Origin: Spirochaetaceae bacterium
Lineage (GTDB): Bacteria > Spirochaetota > Spirochaetia > Treponematales > Breznakiellaceae
Length of the DNA stretch: 11,439 bases
Assembly: GCA_031258625.1 (NCBI GenBank)
Contig: JAIRMO010000028.1
Coordinates: forward strand, 1 to 11,439
Direction of reading: 5' to 3'
The translations under genes and the position numbers were made by a program. The notes beneath the pieces are model-generated. The model did not search any database and was not told the origin of the DNA. It saw nothing but the letters and a program-made list of their open reading frames with translations. Numbering within the stretch: the first letter of the stretch is position 1; every line of letters begins with the position of its first letter. This document shows positions 5,064 to 11,439 of the stretch, one piece after another.

Positions 5064-6794
5064 ATGACCCGTCCGCTTTGGTCTCGGAGGATGTTTTTGC
5101 TTAAAACCGCCTGCATCCTGGGAGGAGGGCTTGCCCTGGCGCTGCTGGGGGGGATATTTTTTTTCACCCTCCATGGGGAAGGGGGGAGCGGGGAAGCCGG
5201 CGGGGATTTTCCCCGGATGCTGGCGGAATTTGACCTCCTGGCGGAGCGGCCGGAAGGGGCTTCCCCGGAAAGGCTCAATTCCCTCCTGGAGGGCCTTGAA
5301 AAAAAGGCCCTCAGCGTGGAGTCCCACCTTTCGGTCCTGAAACGCCGCAGAAACCTTGCCCGTTATTCCGGTTTCCCGCCGGAAAGGGCGGCGCTTTTTA
5401 TCGGCGCCTATGGGGAAGCGGCGGCCCGGATCAGCGGGTACTTCCCCCACTCCGAACCCCTGGCGGCCCTGGCCGCGGAGGCCCTGTTTCTGGGGGATCC
5501 CCGGATCGCCCCGGAAACCGCGGAGGCCCTGGAGGATCTCCTTGCCCGGATTCGGGATCCCGCCCTCCGGCCCTTGGCATTAAGCCTCTACGTCCTTTCC
5601 GGAAAACTGGGGGATCCCCAAAGCGCCGCGGGTGTCCCCCAGGGGGAGGCCCTTTTTGCCTCGGCGATTCCCCTGGTTTCGGAAAAAGAGGGGGAACAAT
5701 TTTTGGTCAACCGGGGGATACTCAGGCTCCTCGCGGGGGATATCCCGGGGTGCGGGGCCCTGGTTAAGACCCTGCTCGCTGGCCCCCCCGGGGGCGGCGG
5801 GGGATTCCCGGAAACCCCCTGGTCCCCGTCCCCGGAAACGCTCCGGTTTGGGGCGGAGTTTTTTTACGATTTTGGGGATCCCCTGGAGAGCGCGGAGCTT
5901 TTTTCCCGCTTTTCCGATGAAAAAAGCCTGGCCCGGCAGGCGGACGCCCTTTGGCTTGCGGGGTACGGCGATACCGCCCGGAACCTATGGCACAGCCTGA
6001 CCCTCCCCCAAGACGCCGGAGGGGCTCAAGACCAGGATCGCATATCCCGGAGCCTCTACAACCTGGCCGCCACCGCCCCGTCCCCTGAGGAAAAAGCCGC
6101 TTACCTGGAGCGGTTTTTCGCGGAACAACAACCCGCCCCTTCCCCGGCCCTGACTTACGGTATTTTAGCCTACACCCGGCTCCTGGACACCCCCCGGGCC
6201 GTGGTTATTCTTGAGGAACAGGATCTAAAAAACGAGGGGCTTTTGGATTTGGAGTTACTTAAACGCCGCCGGGACCTTTGGACCATAGACCGGACGGTGG
6301 CGGAATTATGGCTCCTCCTGGGCCGGCATCCCCTGGATGAACGGCTGTACCAATGGGCCGCCGCTTATTTTGACCTCCAGAAACGGTACGACGAAACTGC
6401 GGTGCTTATCAAGACCGCCGGGTACAACCACCTTGGGGGGGGCTGGATAGACCTCAACCAGGGGATCCGGCTCATCCGGGAAGGCCGTCTGGACGAAGGG
6501 GAAGCCCTGCTCAGGGGGCTGTCCGGCCGCTCCTGGCAGGCCGACGCCGTTATCGCCCGGAGCCTCGAAGCCCGCCGTTCCAACGCCGCGGCCCTGGAGT
6601 ATTACGAAACCGCCGCGTCCCGGGTGGGGGACAAAAAAAGCGCCGCCCGGATACAACTGAATATCGCCCGGTGCCTGCGGGCTCTGGGCCGGAACAGGGA
6701 AATTCGCCGGGTCCTGGAATTCGCCGGGGATTTGGACCCGGAAAACCTGAACGTCCGGCTGGAACTCCGCCGCCTGGAAAACCAGGGACTGTAA
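5064..6794 (+). CDS. Membrane-anchored TPR-repeat protein of unknown function
   Basis: The 576-residue protein has a short basic N-terminus, then a hydrophobic segment (about 11-36, LLKTACILGGGLALALLGGI) that should act as an uncleaved signal anchor, leaving the rest in the periplasm. The remainder is helical and Ala/Leu-rich with tetratricopeptide-like helix pairs. The clearest are near the C-terminus: WIDLNQGIRLIREGRLDEGEALL, SNAAALEYYETAASRVGDKKSA and ARIQLNIARCLRALGRNREIRRVLEFAGDLDPENLNVRLEL. TPR proteins are scaffolds for protein contacts; no catalytic motif is visible. It starts 2 nt after nusB, so it belongs to the same transcript. Codon use is extreme in GGG, CCC and GCC. It is probably a lineage-specific envelope protein, but I do not recognise it further. 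Confidence 0.8.
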   Translation: MTRPLWSRRMFLLKTACILGGGLALALLGGIFFFTLHGEGGSGEAGGDFPRMLAEFDLLAERPEGASPERLNSLLEGLEKKALSVESHLSVLKRRRNLARYSGFPPERAALFIGAYGEAAARISGYFPHSEPLAALAAEALFLGDPRIAPETAEALEDLLARIRDPALRPLALSLYVLSGKLGDPQSAAGVPQGEALFASAIPLVSEKEGEQFLVNRGILRLLAGDIPGCGALVKTLLAGPPGGGGGFPETPWSPSPETLRFGAEFFYDFGDPLESAELFSRFSDEKSLARQADALWLAGYGDTARNLWHSLTLPQDAGGAQDQDRISRSLYNLAATAPSPEEKAAYLERFFAEQQPAPSPALTYGILAYTRLLDTPRAVVILEEQDLKNEGLLDLELLKRRRDLWTIDRTVAELWLLLGRHPLDERLYQWAAAYFDLQKRYDETAVLIKTAGYNHLGGGWIDLNQGIRLIREGRLDEGEALLRGLSGRSWQADAVIARSLEARRSNAAALEYYETAASRVGDKKSAARIQLNIARCLRALGRNREIRRVLEFAGDLDPENLNVRLELRRLENQGL

Positions 6795-6936: not shown

Positions 6937-7488
6937 ATGAGATCTTTACGTACATTAAAACAAGGGGTGTGGTATGAAATCCGTACCCGCATCAACAACC
7001 GGGAACCCCTGTTCCGCTTAGGGACAGGCGCCGCGGCGACTGTCCCCAATAAGGCCCTGGCCCTGTTTGCCAAGGTGTTCCGGGAGACGAAACTACGGTT
7101 TGTCTTCGAGGTCCGGGGGCTCTGTCTTGCGGATGACTGGCTGACGTTTTACATTAAACCGGCGGATGGGCTGGAACTACCCGCAATCATGAAGTGGCTG
7201 AAACAGGTGTTTGCCCAACGGTACAACCGGGCGGAGGGCCGGATCGGGCATATCTGGGGGGACCGGTATGGGTCGTGGATAATGGAGGGGGAGCCGGACG
7301 CGGAGCCCGGAGAGGGGTGGGGGAATTCGGACATCGATGCCCTCACCGGGGTCAGACCCTGTTGTACAGACATCGGGAGCGGATCTTGGAGTATGGACCC
7401 TGGGGTCAGACCCCAGGGCGGGAAAAACGCGGCGCCTCCCTGTTTTCCCCTCATTTCCCCCTTCTCCATCGTCCCTGCGCCCGGATAA
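6937..7488 (+). CDS. RAYT-like (REP-associated Y1 transposase) protein lacking the HUH motif
   Basis: The 183-residue product follows the RAYT / IS200-type Y1 layout: YEIRTRINNREPLF (13-26) matches the YHVtsRgnnrqpiF opening, and LPAIMKWLKQVFAQRYNR...GRIGHIWGDRY (81-111) matches the LK..ya..fNrr.gr.GhlwqgRy block, with Y96 a candidate nucleophile. The strand that should carry the metal-binding His pair (NHYHLL-type) instead reads LADDWLTFYI (64-73), so classical HUH nuclease activity is unlikely. Residues after about 118 are low-complexity; within them two GVRP sequences (138-141, 156-159) are encoded by GGGTCAGACCC palindromes. Residues 27-37 are also encoded by an inverted repeat. It has no convincing ribosome-binding site; TATACT at 6927-6932 lies just before the ATG. 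I recall similar proteins in multiple copies in termite treponemes. It could be a domesticated transposase or a decaying one. Confidence 0.65.
   Translation: MRSLRTLKQGVWYEIRTRINNREPLFRLGTGAAATVPNKALALFAKVFRETKLRFVFEVRGLCLADDWLTFYIKPADGLELPAIMKWLKQVFAQRYNRAEGRIGHIWGDRYGSWIMEGEPDAEPGEGWGNSDIDALTGVRPCCTDIGSGSWSMDPGVRPQGGKNAAPPCFPLISPFSIVPAPG
7018..7049. repeat. Inverted repeat inside the RAYT-like gene
   Basis: GGGACAG (7021-7027) pairs with CTGTCCC (7040-7046). After one mismatch, 7029-7032 pairs with 7035-7038, and TT/AA match at the outer ends. It encodes residues 28-38 (LGTGAAATVPN), which fall between the conserved NREPLF and ALALF segments, and it looks like an in-frame inserted palindrome. 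Confidence 0.45.
7348..7418. repeat. Two GGGTCAGACCC REP-like palindromes in the RAYT-like gene
   Basis: The first core is at 7349-7359. The second is the centre of a perfect 21-nt palindrome at 7398-7418 (10-bp arms CCCTGGGGTC and GACCCCAGGG around A7408). Both keep the same orientation as the copies at 436-446 and 477-487, and both are read in the same frame as Gly-Val-Arg-Pro. Co-occurrence of a RAYT gene with its own palindrome is the known REP/RAYT arrangement. Confidence 0.6.
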
Positions 7489-7711
7489 CCGGCGATAACC
7501 CGCCCATGTTTCAGATCATTCTCCGTTTTCACCCTAATTCGAAAGACCTCTTGGGGAAACGTCTGCCCTAAGGCCGGTAAAAAACCTAAATCGCGGGTCA
7601 AATTTGTCCTGCCGCCCCCGGATAAACCGGTTTGGTTTCATAAACGGTAAAACCGCCGGTTATATCGAAAGGGGACAAGAAACCGGATACGCGAATTCGT
7701 AATTTATTTAC

Positions 7712-7729
7712 TTACAAATGAAAGATTTT
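7712..7729 (+). promoter_or_regulatory. Candidate operator upstream of the DeoR-family gene
   Basis: TTACAAATGAAAGATTTT matches the site at 8688-8705 at 16 of 18 bases. It lies two bases before the -35 of the repressor's own promoter. DeoR-family operators commonly hold GAAA/TTTC-type half sites, as here, so this suggests autoregulation. Binding is inferred. Confidence 0.55.
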
Positions 7730-7731
7730 CC

Positions 7732-7759
7732 TTGACTTTTTTAAGATATTTAGTATGTT
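7732..7759 (+). promoter_or_regulatory. Promoter of the DeoR-family gene
   Basis: TTGACT (7732-7737) is followed after 16 bases by TATGTT (7754-7759) in an AT-rich stretch unlike the GC-rich surroundings. The start would be near 7766, giving about 64 nt of leader to the ATG at 7830. The rest of the gap since 7489 holds no gene, only a weak AACCGG/CCGGTT hairpin (7625-7630 with 7656-7661). Confidence 0.55.
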
Positions 7760-7829
7760 TTAAGTGAAGAAGGAAATCAAAACCTTCATACCGGCGGCGC
7801 TGTTAAAAACACACGAAGAAGGAGAACTC

Positions 7830-8582
7830 ATGACGGAGAGACACAATCGATTATTGGAGATCCTGGCGGCTAATCAACGGATAGAGGTAACCGCTTTGGC
7901 GGACTTACTGATGGTATCCCAGGTTACGGTACGTAAGGATCTGGATTACCTTGAAGCTCGGGGACTTTTACGCCGCGAGCATGGATACGCGCTTTTTGGT
8001 TCCATTGACGATGTGGGAAAGCGGATGGCTTTACACTATGAAATAAAACGGCGGATCGCCCGGGAAGCGGCGGTTCTGGTCGAGGAGGGTGAAACCGTGA
8101 TGATCGAATCCGGGTCTTGCTGTGCCCTGTTGGCGGAAGAACTGGCCAATACCCGGAAGGAAGTAACTATCGTCACCAATTCGGCTTTTATCGCCAACCA
8201 CACCCGCCACGCCCCCTACAGCCGGGTAATCCTCCTGGGAGGGGAATATCAACCGACCGCCCAAGTACTGGTCGGGTCCATCACCCGGCGTTCGGCGGAG
8301 GTCTTTTTCTCGGACAAGCTTTTTATCGGCGTCGATGGATTTACCCCCAAATACGGTTTCACCGGGAAGGATCATCTGCGGGCGCAAACTGTCCGGGACC
8401 TGGTGGAACAGGCCCAGCAGATAATCGTCCTCACCGAATCGGACAAGTTTTTCCACCAGGGCGCCGAGGGGCTGATACGGACCGATGAGGTGGAAATGGT
8501 CTTTACCGATGACAAAATCCCTGCGGATATAGAAGCCCATCTGACACAACGAAACGTCGATGTCCGCAAGGTAAAATCATGA
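7830..8582 (+). CDS. DeoR-family sugar-phosphate-responsive repressor
   Basis: The 250-residue length is normal for DeoR/GlpR regulators. Residues 4-57 are the DeoR winged helix-turn-helix (RHNRLLEILAANQRIEV, then LADLLMVSQVTVRKDLDYLE, ending RREHGYA). Residues about 72-235 are the sugar-phosphate-binding domain related to ribose-5-phosphate isomerase, with family blocks VMIESGSCCALLAEEL (90-105), VTIVTNS, ILLGGEY, DKLFIGVDGF (162-171) and IIVLTESDKF (198-207). The family represses sugar-use genes until a phosphorylated intermediate binds. I start at the ATG 7830 because AAGGAG (7819-7824) is 5 nt upstream; an upstream in-frame GTG at 7764 would add a non-family extension. The shared box before this gene and before the kinase suggests it represses both. 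A terminator separates it from the kinase. The effector may be the kinase product, which is inference. Confidence 0.92.
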   Translation: MTERHNRLLEILAANQRIEVTALADLLMVSQVTVRKDLDYLEARGLLRREHGYALFGSIDDVGKRMALHYEIKRRIAREAAVLVEEGETVMIESGSCCALLAEELANTRKEVTIVTNSAFIANHTRHAPYSRVILLGGEYQPTAQVLVGSITRRSAEVFFSDKLFIGVDGFTPKYGFTGKDHLRAQTVRDLVEQAQQIIVLTESDKFFHQGAEGLIRTDEVEMVFTDDKIPADIEAHLTQRNVDVRKVKS

Positions 8583-8587
8583 TGATC

Positions 8588-8674
8588 CTGAGTCCGCAAA
8601 CAGGCCGGGACTATCCCTAACGCGGCCTCCGCTTCCCGGACTCGGTTTGTTAAGAAACAAAAAGTCTTTTTTTT
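8588..8674 (+). terminator. Composite intrinsic terminator after the DeoR-family gene
   Basis: An outer stem pairs 8588-8596 (CTGAGTCCG) with 8637-8645 (CGGACTCGG, one G-T pair). It encloses a second stem AGGCCG/CGGCCT (8602-8607 with 8623-8628). Immediately after come a TTTGTT/AACAAA hairpin (8646-8661) and a run of eight T (8667-8674). The T-run is not directly after the GC stem, so which hairpin terminates is uncertain. Confidence 0.6.
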
Positions 8675-8686
8675 GAAAGATTACTG

Positions 8687-8715
8687 TTTACAAACGAAAT
8701 ATTTTATAGTATATT
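8687..8715 (+). promoter_or_regulatory. Promoter of the kinase / glycyl radical enzyme operon
   Basis: TTTACA (8687-8692) and TATATT (8710-8715) each match the consensus at five of six positions and are spaced by the optimal 17 bases. The start would be near 8722, about 70 nt before the kinase ATG. The candidate operator at 8688-8705 covers most of the -35 and the spacer, so bound repressor would block polymerase. Confidence 0.65.
8688..8705 (+). promoter_or_regulatory. Candidate DeoR-family operator over the kinase promoter
   Basis: TTACAAACGAAATATTTT is the second copy of the box at 7712-7729. An additional GAAAGATT (8675-8682), also part of the first copy, lies just upstream and may be an extra half site. 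GTTT-AC-AAAC (8686-8695) gives local dyad symmetry. Confidence 0.55.
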
Positions 8716-8792
8716 TAAAAAAGTTAGCCACCTTAGTTTCGGTAATCCCACAGATGGAAATTTACCGGCTCGGGCTGAAGGGAAAATGGGGA

Positions 8793-9770
8793 ATGGATAT
8801 GGATACCTATGTTATGGGGATTGATGTAGGGGGAACCAAAATCGCCTGCGGCCTTTTTGACGAAGAGAAAAATCTTATTGCCCGGCGCCGTTGTCCCTCG
8901 GACCCCGCCCTGCCGCCGGAAGCCTTTTTTGACGGCCTTGTCCGGGAAATCCGCGCCCTGCTGGAGGAACAATCCCTGAGTCCGGACAAGCTCCGGGGAA
9001 TCGGTCTGGGAATGCCCTCGTTTATCCGTTTTGAACAAGGCTATATCGTAAAAACCAGTAACCTGGTCAACATCCGGGATTTTCCCGCCAAAACCTATCT
9101 GATGGAAAAACTCCCCAAGGTCCCGGTTGTTTTGGATAATGACGCCCACGTAGCGGCCCTGGCCGAAAACCGTTTTGGGGCGGGCAGGGGGTTTAAGAAT
9201 ATGCTTTACTGTCCGATCAGTACCGGTATCTCCACGGGGATCATCATCAACGGCAAACTTTTCCGGGGAACCTACGGTTGGGCCGGGGAAACCGGACACA
9301 TGATCGCCACCCCCGGGGAGGGCCTCCTCTGCGGCTGCGGTAACCAGGGGTGTTTTATGTCCTGGTGTTCGGGTTCCATGATCATAAAACACATCCGGAA
9401 CTGGATAAACCAGGGGGAAAAGACCCTGATGACCGGCCTTGCCGGCGGTACGGCCCTTATTGATTGCTTCCATCTGGAAACAGCCTATGACCGGGGCGAT
9501 CCCCTGGCGGTGAGGGCCCTGGATCAGATGGCCCGGTATCTGGGGCTGTGGTTTTTTAACCTCTATGTAACCTTCAACATCGACTGTTTTGTCCTGGGAG
9601 GGGGCCTCCTCAACATGGGGGACAGGCTTCTCGGCCCGGTCAGGAAGATATTTGACTCATACAACCGGAATGATATGCCGGTTTATTTTAAGCCCGCCGA
9701 ACTTGCGGATCGTTTTGGGATGATCGGGGCGGCGGAGCTGATTTTTGAGGAATACGGGAGTTTAGCATGA
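8793..9770 (+). CDS. ROK-family sugar kinase
   Basis: The 325-residue protein is a typical ROK kinase, which moves phosphate from ATP to a sugar, often the 6-hydroxyl of a hexose. The phosphate-binding loop GIDVGGTK (9-16) opens the N-terminal lobe. VVLDNDAHVAALAE (112-125) holds the catalytic Asp D117. GETGHM (165-170) and CGCGNQGC (180-187) give the ROK zinc site (H169, C180, C182, C187). The Glu that usually follows the last Cys is Met here. LGGG at 268-271 belongs to the C-terminal lobe. The start is either ATG 8793 or ATG 8799 (GGGGA 6 nt upstream of the latter); an upstream ATG (8754) adds a non-family tail. It overlaps the glycyl radical enzyme gene by ATGA and so is translationally coupled. 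The context suggests it makes the phosphorylated substrate for that enzyme; the sugar itself cannot be read from sequence. Confidence 0.92.
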   Translation: MDMDTYVMGIDVGGTKIACGLFDEEKNLIARRRCPSDPALPPEAFFDGLVREIRALLEEQSLSPDKLRGIGLGMPSFIRFEQGYIVKTSNLVNIRDFPAKTYLMEKLPKVPVVLDNDAHVAALAENRFGAGRGFKNMLYCPISTGISTGIIINGKLFRGTYGWAGETGHMIATPGEGLLCGCGNQGCFMSWCSGSMIIKHIRNWINQGEKTLMTGLAGGTALIDCFHLETAYDRGDPLAVRALDQMARYLGLWFFNLYVTFNIDCFVLGGGLLNMGDRLLGPVRKIFDSYNRNDMPVYFKPAELADRFGMIGAAELIFEEYGSLA

Positions 9771-11439
9771 ATTATTTCGGCGAGCTCACCCCCCGGATGC
9801 ACGAATTCCGGGAAGAGCTGCTTACGGTAAAGCCCTTCGTCTGCACCGAACGGGCAAAGATCACCACCGAAACCTATCGGGCGAATATGGATCAGCCCCT
9901 GGCCCTGCGCCGGGCCTTGATGTACCAAAACGTCCTGGCGGAGATGAGCGTTTTTATCGAACCCCAGACCCTGCTGGCGGGGAATCAGGCCTCGGGGAAC
10001 CGGTCCGCGCCGATCTTCCCCGAATATGCCATGGATTGGGTCATCGCGGAGCTGGACGAGTTTGACAAACGGGACGGGGACCGGTTTTACATTACCGAAG
10101 AAAACAAACAGACCCTCCGGGAAATCGCCCCCTTCTGGGAGCATAACACCGTCAAGGACCGGGGACTGGCCGCCATGCCCGCCTCCGCCAAGGTCTTCTA
10201 CGACCTGGGGGTCATCAAGGCCGAGGGGAACATCACCTCCGGGGACGCCCATGTGGCGGTGAATTACCGCCGGATGCTGCAAAAGGGGCTTAAAGAATTT
10301 AAGGAACGGGCGGAGGAAAAACTCAAAAACCTGGACCTCACCGATTACCAAAACCTGGCCAAGTCCTATTTTTACCGGGCGGTGATCATCGTGGTGGACG
10401 CCACCCGGGCCTTTGCCCGGCGTTACGCGGATCTGGCCCGCCGCATGGCCCAGGGGGAACAGGACCCCCGGCGGAAGGCGGAGCTTTTGGAGATGGGGCG
10501 GATCCTGGACAAGGTACCCTACGAAGGGGCACAGACCTTTTACGAGGCGGTCCAGGCCCTGTGGCTCGTCCACCTCTGTTTACAAATAGAAAGCAACGGC
10601 CACTCCCTTTCCTACGGCCGGATGGATCAGTACCTCTACCCCTATTACGAAAGGGACCTGGCCGCGGGCCGTATCACCGCCGACGGGGCCGTTGAACTCC
10701 TCACCAACCTCTGGCTCAAGACCTTCACCATCAACAAGATCCGCAGTTGGTCCCATACCCGGTTTTCCGCGGGGAGCCCTCTCTACCAAAACGTAACCGT
10801 GGGGGGCCAGACCGTGGAGGGGAAGGACGCGGTGAACCCCCTCACCTACCTCATCCTCCGCAGCGTGGCCCAGACCCGGCTCCCCCAGCCGAACCTGACC
10901 GTGCGCTACCACAAGGGCCTGGACAACCGGTTTATGGCGGAGTGTATCGAAGTGGTACGCCTGGGTTTTGGGATGCCCGCCTTCAACAGCGACGAGGTGA
11001 TCATCCCCTCCTTTATCAAAAAGGGGGTAAAGCCCGAGGACGCCTACGACTACAGCGCCATCGGCTGCGTGGAAGTGGCGGTCCCCGGCAAGTGGGGGTA
11101 CCGCTGTACCGGGATGAGCTTCCTCAACTTCCCCAAATCCCTCCTCATCGCGCTGAACGACGGGGTGGATCCTGTTTCGGGGACCCGGCTCTGTCAGGGG
11201 GCCGGCCATTTCCGGGACATGCGCTCCTTTGACGAGGTGACGGCCGCCTGGGACCGGATCATCCGGGAATTCACCCGCCAATGCGTGATCATCGATTCCG
11301 TGGCGGATACGGTGCTGGAACGGGACACCGCGGACATCCTCTGCTCCGCCCTGTGCGACGACTGCCTGGAGCGGGGGCTCAACCTCAAAGAAGGGGGGGC
11401 GGTCTATGATTTTATCAGCGATCTCCAGGTGGGGATCGC
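9767..11439 (+). CDS. Glycyl radical enzyme, YbiW/PflD-like (candidate 1,5-anhydrohexitol-6-phosphate lyase), 3' end missing
   Basis: The frame runs open from the ATG at 9767, overlapping the kinase stop, to the window edge (557 residues of an expected about 800). It belongs to the pyruvate-formate-lyase-like superfamily: AIGCVEVAVPGKWGYRCTGM (431-450) contains the thiyl radical Cys C434 and the partner Glu E436. From memory, E. coli YbiW shares many of these blocks: VCTERA (25-30), GNQAS (72-76), APIFPEY (81-87), IKAEGNITSGDAH (150-162), LQIESNGHSLSYGRMDQYLYPYY (272-294), AGSPLYQNVT (335-344) and FGMPAFNSDE (401-410). YbiW and PflD are reported to cleave the ring C-O bond of 1,5-anhydroglucitol- or anhydromannitol-6-phosphate. 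The C-terminal glycyl radical loop (RVAGYSA type) lies beyond the window, so activity cannot be confirmed. The enzyme needs a radical SAM activase, expected just downstream. It is anaerobic and cytoplasmic. A related dehydratase or C-C lyase specificity remains possible. Confidence 0.9.
   Translation, partial: MNYFGELTPRMHEFREELLTVKPFVCTERAKITTETYRANMDQPLALRRALMYQNVLAEMSVFIEPQTLLAGNQASGNRSAPIFPEYAMDWVIAELDEFDKRDGDRFYITEENKQTLREIAPFWEHNTVKDRGLAAMPASAKVFYDLGVIKAEGNITSGDAHVAVNYRRMLQKGLKEFKERAEEKLKNLDLTDYQNLAKSYFYRAVIIVVDATRAFARRYADLARRMAQGEQDPRRKAELLEMGRILDKVPYEGAQTFYEAVQALWLVHLCLQIESNGHSLSYGRMDQYLYPYYERDLAAGRITADGAVELLTNLWLKTFTINKIRSWSHTRFSAGSPLYQNVTVGGQTVEGKDAVNPLTYLILRSVAQTRLPQPNLTVRYHKGLDNRFMAECIEVVRLGFGMPAFNSDEVIIPSFIKKGVKPEDAYDYSAIGCVEVAVPGKWGYRCTGMSFLNFPKSLLIALNDGVDPVSGTRLCQGAGHFRDMRSFDEVTAAWDRIIREFTRQCVIIDSVADTVLERDTADILCSALCDDCLERGLNLKEGGAVYDFISDLQVGI

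Follow-up and report, generated by a model that had tools for sequence, protein, structure and literature searches.

Anhydroglycolysis in Escherichia coli was reportedly described by Ma et al. in 2024 (J Am Chem Soc 146:26187) as a pathway in which the glycyl radical enzyme (GRE) YbiW and its partner YbiY work with FsaA. YbiY acts there as the activase of the GRE and FsaA as the fructose-6-phosphate aldolase (FSA); the 8 kb shown hold ybiW with ybiY and fsaA as its neighbours, and a ROK gene is absent from them. According to section 5.1 of PMC12441222, YbiW and PflD cleave 6-phosphates after uptake by the phosphotransferase system (PTS), with which both of the known pathways begin. Passages of the same source place 1,5-anhydroglucitol, a sugar resembling glucose, in nearly all foods tested and report neutropenia in two inherited diseases, caused by the accumulation of its 6-phosphate in neutrophils (PMC12441222). 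The window analysed here is one whole contig (G000:C205, 11,439 bases) of an uncultured Spirochaetaceae genome (2.1 Mb, 72% complete, 242 contigs), and its final 3.7 kb carry the genes for a DeoR-family repressor and a ROK sugar kinase, followed by the part of a GRE gene that encodes its first 557 residues. These genes are probably best read as an operon under its own repressor that serves a kinase-first form of anhydroglycolysis independent of the PTS.

The open reading frames (ORFs) and Pfam matches confirm the gene order proposed in the earlier note on this DNA, with the DeoR gene adjacent to kinase and GRE genes joined by an ATGA overlap (9767-9770), in which the kinase stop is also the GRE start. 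As the contig ends inside the GRE, the following 3-5 kb lie outside this assembly's contig. The locus resembles the E. coli anhydroglycolysis system in the clade and the active-site blocks of its GRE, and an FSA partner is also present in some Bacillota loci; it differs in that a ROK kinase would replace the PTS, in having a DeoR repressor with a conserved operator, and in that FSA was not found in most of the spirochetes. With the E. coli PflD/PflC system and its Frw PTS genes it shares the GRE family and, by homology, the ring opening of a 6-phosphate (PMC12441222), whereas PflD is 40% identical, belongs to a separate clade and has PTS genes in its locus.

Family and clade of the glycyl radical enzyme

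The GRE of the window matches the Pfam PFL-like family with an E-value of 2.2e-173 and is 96% identical over its 557 residues to the GRE of G004, a relative of the same genus. The full-length orthologue from G001, another relative of that genus, has 53% identity with E. coli YbiW, compared with 40% for PflD. Among the PDB entries its highest scores are to 6XS4 (924 bits), named Formate C-acetyltransferase by its depositors, and to YbiW (913 bits), the next kinds being glycerol dehydratase (594 bits) and PflD (517 bits). With 967 bits it clears the 678-bit cut-off of the PFL2-3 subfamily model, for which YbiW is the top scorer among the proteins scanned, and stays below the equivalog models for the hydroxyproline, choline, sulfopropanediol and PflD-type enzymes (538-589 bits against cut-offs of 1000-1109). 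The B12-independent glycerol dehydratase (1R8W) and the diol dehydratase (5I2A) share the GRE family and the GCVE block, but they score 594 and 560 bits compared with 913 for YbiW, and read ..GWHD.. after GCVE where the window GRE reads ..GYRCTGM... The corresponding pattern [KR]WGYR is present in 45 of the 46 YbiW-clade rows and in none of the 11 other GREs.

In quick trees, in which both E. coli rows sit on long branches, the window GRE groups with YbiW with an SH-aLRT value of 90 (57 rows), rising to 100 after the removal of three very long rows. A topology forcing the operon clade together with the PflD-type enzymes, YbiW remaining outside, was rejected in a reduced tree (p-AU 0.0006). The tree contained PflD and hydroxyproline dehydratase and sets both apart; outside the tree, the separation from glycerol dehydratase, choline lyase and sulfopropanediol dehydratase is by score. 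The grouping with some other GRE clade, which the earlier note had entertained as a challenge to its own proposal, was thus not observed. Thirty-eight alignment columns carry a residue that the YbiW clade conserves, with no more than one deviating row, and that none of the 11 other GREs has; the window reaches 28 of these and matches all 28, the other 10 lying past the contig end. The glycyl radical loop RVAGYSAFF is present in the full-length relatives, G004 included, and the loop region of the window's own copy also falls past the contig end. Identity, PDB scores, tree and columns bear out the likeness to YbiW noticed earlier, and membership of the GRE in the YbiW clade is supported by these comparisons.

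The same data bear on the identity of the sugar. The substrate of the GRE might be another 6-phosphorylated cyclic polyol (1,5-anhydromannitol-6-phosphate or the phosphate of some other anhydrohexitol), with the kinase acting on the corresponding free sugar, so that the chemistry would be retained with a different stereochemistry. In favour of this, the identity between the orthologue and YbiW is no higher than 53%, long branches separate the two in the tree, and the sugars of the two E. coli enzymes are themselves different (PMC12441222). The grouping with YbiW and not with PflD, along with the match at every clade-specific column within reach, argues for the sugar of YbiW, and another stereochemistry is regarded as rather unlikely.

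The ROK kinase and its sugar site

The relatives of the operon were surveyed in the best 80 of 555 confirmed places, with the neighbourhood counts made on 79 loci (no GRE ORF was called in L146); these counts are lower bounds, since many contigs end near the GRE. In 39 of the 79 loci the GRE is accompanied by a ROK kinase of the window's type, in 10 by a BglK-like ROK kinase and in 30 by neither. The window's type occurs in 20 of the 28 Spirochaetota loci, 18 of the 44 Bacillota loci and one planctomycete, so that the arrangement is not special to a gut spirochete, the setting considered in the earlier note.

The window kinase matches Pfam ROK with 206 bits and carries the DxGxT motif, the catalytic Asp, ExGH and the zinc cysteines; the motif CxCGxxGCx(E/D) ends in Met instead. 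Five residues of the ROK kinases bind the sugar, the last of them within this zinc motif (PMC2742894, PMC5458393), and Glu187 of the E. coli glucokinase hydrogen-bonds glucose (PMC12312565). In an alignment of 40 kinases, to which that of the window belongs, the sugar site is N, D, E, H and M in 34; five BglK-like kinases have neither the sugar-site His nor the Glu, and one kinase (L092) is frame-broken, with GCFM in a frame other than that of its start. We take Glu187 of the E. coli enzyme to be the residue matching the window's Met. With the motif read in seven further loci as well, Met stands at its end in 39 of the 39 loci with this ROK type (in L092 in the other frame). The kinases that accompany the GREs in G020, G056 and G057 have Met there too. 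Paralogues from loci away from the operon gave 11 distinct motifs without Met, which end in Glu (nine), Asp (one) or Gln (one). The paralogue motifs were read in 28 of the 30 fetched loci; that of L257 ends in Asn and is outside the ExGH count, and no motif of the CxCGxxGCx type was found in four paralogue loci (L245, L259, L260 and L262).

If the lost Glu presumably faces the 1-hydroxyl (O1) of the sugar, a sugar devoid of this hydroxyl, such as 1,5-anhydroglucitol, would need no such contact, and the change from Glu to Met fits a substrate of that kind. The kinase looks dedicated to the sugar of this operon. The suggestion in the earlier note that the kinase feeds the GRE gains from the recurrence of the ROK partner and from a pocket change that would suit a 1-deoxy (anhydro) sugar, both being read from sequence. 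An ordinary glucokinase placed by chance in front of the GRE would agree with the nearest solved structures, which are glucokinases, and with the best NCBIfam model, ROK glucokinase, although the score of 196 bits is under the cut-off of 260. The glucokinases 3VGK, 2QM1 and 3VOV share the family and the N-D, ExGH and zinc-cysteine motifs with the window kinase, which differs from them in its Met for the Glu/Asp. The linkage to the GRE in 39 loci, the operator shared with the repressor gene and the Met found throughout the linked loci against none of the 11 paralogue motifs make a chance neighbour very improbable.

Two further ROK genes were noticed. L043 (G020:C117), which has a YbiW-like GRE of more remote kinship, contains a Met-type ROK motif although the ORF caller listed no ROK in this locus. 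In L068 (G002:C97), apart from the operon, the gene immediately upstream of a GRE activase encodes a ROK kinase with GCMD. BglK-like ROK genes are found near GRE and FSA in L103, L108, L109, L113, L126, L127, L131, L133, L135 and L147, where the pathway may have recruited a kinase independently.

The DeoR repressor, its putative operator and the surrounding DNA

The repressor carries both the HTH_DeoR and the DeoRC domains of Pfam and can be placed in the DeoR family; its top NCBIfam model is YciT, at 210 bits below the 450-bit cut-off. The box noted earlier at both promoters is confirmed, with two matches (at most three mismatches) against 0.07 expected and two matches in none of 200 shuffles. 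A count over 83 related loci gave 48 occurrences of its core, TTACRAAYGAAA, and four of a reversed-pattern control. Of the 48, 41 (control: one) lie no more than 350 bases upstream of where one of the four kinds of operon gene starts; these 41 are spread over 36 of the 83 loci. The loci with the core include Spirochaetota, Bacillota, Bifidobacterium and a planctomycete. On this distribution the shared box behaves as a conserved operator.

Across the 10 operon-bearing genomes the core gave 22 matches against 10 for the backwards pattern, 10 of the 22 being at the operon; the 12 matches away from it are about as many as the control matches, and so the regulon looks confined to the operon. No core box was found in G022, and none at the operon in G012. 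A wider regulon was considered, and the ORFs around the off-operon matches gave no convincing further target; two boxes, one in G056 within the gene preceding a DeoC-type gene and one where a DeoR paralogue of G009 begins, were judged to be chance. A promoter consensus scan returned three sites in the region, against 2.1 +/- 1.5 in shuffles; two are listed with the other features in Table 1.

Table 1. Positions of the operon genes, the putative control sites and the key residues in the window
Feature	Position	Strand	Basis
Operator 1 (putative), TTACAAATGAAAGATTTT, core TTACRAAYGAAA, upstream of the DeoR gene	7712..7729	+	Shared-box scan
Promoter-like hexamers TTGACT-16-TATGTT, upstream of the DeoR gene	7732..7759	+	Consensus scan only
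DeoR-family repressor	7830..8582	+	ORF open from 7764; start ATG 7830, after AAGAAGGAG, judged likely from homologues
Promoter-like hexamers TTTACA-17-TATATT, overlapping operator 2	8687..8715	+	Consensus scan only
Operator 2 (putative), TTACAAACGAAATATTTT, upstream of the kinase gene	8688..8705	+	Shared-box scan
ROK sugar kinase, proposed 1,5-anhydroglucitol 6-kinase	8793..9770	+	ORF open from 8673; likely start ATG 8793; CGCGNQGCFM motif
Met codon at the place of the sugar-binding Glu/Asp of CxCGxxGCx(E/D)	9357..9359	+	Motif alignment; consensus from PMC5458393
YbiW-clade GRE	9767..11439	+	557 residues; reading frame still open at the contig end
Active-site cysteine loop of the GRE, GCVEVAVPGKWGYRCTGM	11063..11116	+	Read from the GRE sequence

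Some features were recorded upstream of the operon. Nucleotide similarity to three contigs of the same genus (L032, L033 and L042) begins at 7676-7727, at the DeoR promoter. An ORF at 6937-7488 has a weak match to Y1_Tnp (IS200-like transposase), in a place where some relatives have a GRE activase. The sequence GGGGTCAGACCC occurs in two copies 54 bases apart (7348-7359 and 7402-7413), and a 576-residue ORF without a Pfam match (5064-6794) follows a NusB gene.

Partners of the pathway and the proposed route

FSA lies within 6.5 kb of the GRE in 32 of the 79 loci, namely six of the 39 with the window's ROK type, all 10 with a BglK-like ROK and 16 of the 30 with neither. The six in which this ROK, the GRE and FSA occur together are all Bacillota (L075, L076, L087, L095, L096 and L101); the L096 protein scores 310 bits against a cut-off of 214 with one FSA model and 170 against 246 with a second. 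The GREs of L075 and L076 (83% identity) are among the closest non-spirochete GREs in the tree, the exact sister not being resolved, and as these two loci carry all three genes the loss of FSA in the spirochetes looks secondary. The spirochetes probably lost the aldolase or never received it.

The genome-wide searches for FSA covered two sets. Two models found none in nine of the 10 orthologue-bearing genomes, that of the window included, and an edge fragment in the tenth (G012); the completeness of G001, G002, G022, G024, G028 and G056, which were among those searched, is 89-99%. A locus-based search took in 49 of the 80 loci (48 genomes, L093 left out), and full-length FSA was absent from 24 of the 25 spirochete genomes reached in this way, one of which has an edge fragment (L082, probably the same genome as G012); the remaining genome, that of L113, has two copies. 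The FSA search also gave weak matches (25-36 bits) in spirochete genomes; they lie in frames of about 370-390 residues and were taken for transaldolases, not FSA. A 230-residue neighbour in the spirochete locus L079, considered as a candidate FSA, is a methyladenine glycosylase. Class II fructose-bisphosphate aldolases and DeoC/FbaB were examined in 58 genomes as replacements, and none is common to the operon-bearing genomes.

This pattern is a point in favour of a further alternative, in which the YbiW-fold GRE catalyses another reaction in the spirochetes, the operon does not serve anhydroglycolysis, and the lack of an aldolase reflects a different product. Besides the spirochete carriers, 12 of the 18 Bacillota loci with this ROK type have no FSA within 6.5 kb; among 10 of their genomes that were searched, six (L130, L132, L137, L141, L143 and L144) have no FSA match above 55 bits, and four (L116, L118, L129 and L149) have matches above 100 bits elsewhere in the genome, in L116 as two fragments. 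The near relatives L075 and L076, with their complete set of genes and the secondary loss that they suggest, argue against another reaction, which is considered improbable.

The other partners are likewise scattered. A GRE activase gene is divergent from and adjoins the operon in G001, G028, G009 and G056, and sugar ABC transporter genes are present in 10 of the 79 loci, nine of them with this ROK type (the family was checked in one locus, L088). No activase or transporter is linked to the operon within the window; a search for an activase remnant there gave a best tblastn E-value of 0.010, and the best activase-model match in this genome, incomplete as it is, has 38 bits. These results, together with the FSA searches, do not uphold the description of the system in the earlier note as self-contained. 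PTS EIIC (PF02378) was not found in five of the 10 orthologue-bearing genomes, the 72% complete genome of the window being one of them, and is present in one copy in each of the other five. A conserved family of about 600 residues was seen beside PflD-like GRE and activase genes (L137:3955-5727, L143:17353-19194, L149:5209-7002), its L143 member having no Pfam match. The conserved ORF clusters c8 and c11 were set aside as apparent antisense frames of GC-rich DNA; for one member of c8 Pfam gave no match.

Several points weigh against the kinase-first anhydroglycolysis operon: the near-complete absence of full-length FSA from both sets of genomes, with no common replacement aldolase; the lack of a linked activase or transporter in the window; a PTS search that covered a single family, PF02378; and a paralogue control that is partial, the 30 fetched loci coming from ROK matches in 15 genomes. 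The orientation of the lost Glu towards O1 is, in addition, a presumption. The cited passages say of the motif Glu/Asp that it binds the sugar and no more (PMC2742894, PMC5458393, PMC12312565).

The sequence comparisons establish the genes, the clades to which they belong, their linkage and the conservation of the box; from them we infer the substrate, the kinase activity, the ring opening and the repression with its effector, and from homology the chemistry. In the proposed route, free 1,5-anhydroglucitol would enter by a transporter not linked to this copy, and the ROK kinase would use ATP to form 1,5-anhydroglucitol-6-phosphate in place of the PTS. The activase would place the radical on the YbiW-type GRE, which would then open the C-O ring to give 1-deoxyfructose-6-phosphate. 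DeoR would bind the core box at its own promoter and that of the kinase, and either the substrate or an intermediate carrying phosphate would presumably release it. Among the matches listed in the open-access literature, none describes a bacterial kinase for 1,5-anhydroglucitol or a form of the pathway with a ROK kinase, which is not proof of absence.

Such spirochete metagenome-assembled genomes, and hence the window, presumably come from termite guts. A wider reading, held tentatively and with somewhat less than even confidence, comprises a dedicated Glu-to-Met subfamily of ROK 1,5-anhydroglucitol 6-kinases that drives a branch of radical glycolysis without a PTS, a single conserved DeoR operator controlling this branch across Spirochaetota, Bacillota and a planctomycete, and an FSA-independent route for the product in (probably termite-gut) spirochetes. 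If true, the kinase-first route would widen the range of anaerobes able to use 1,5-anhydroglucitol, and the Met of the zinc motif would provide a sequence mark for finding 1,5-anhydroglucitol kinases. It also raises the sharp question of what stands in for the aldolase in the spirochetes.

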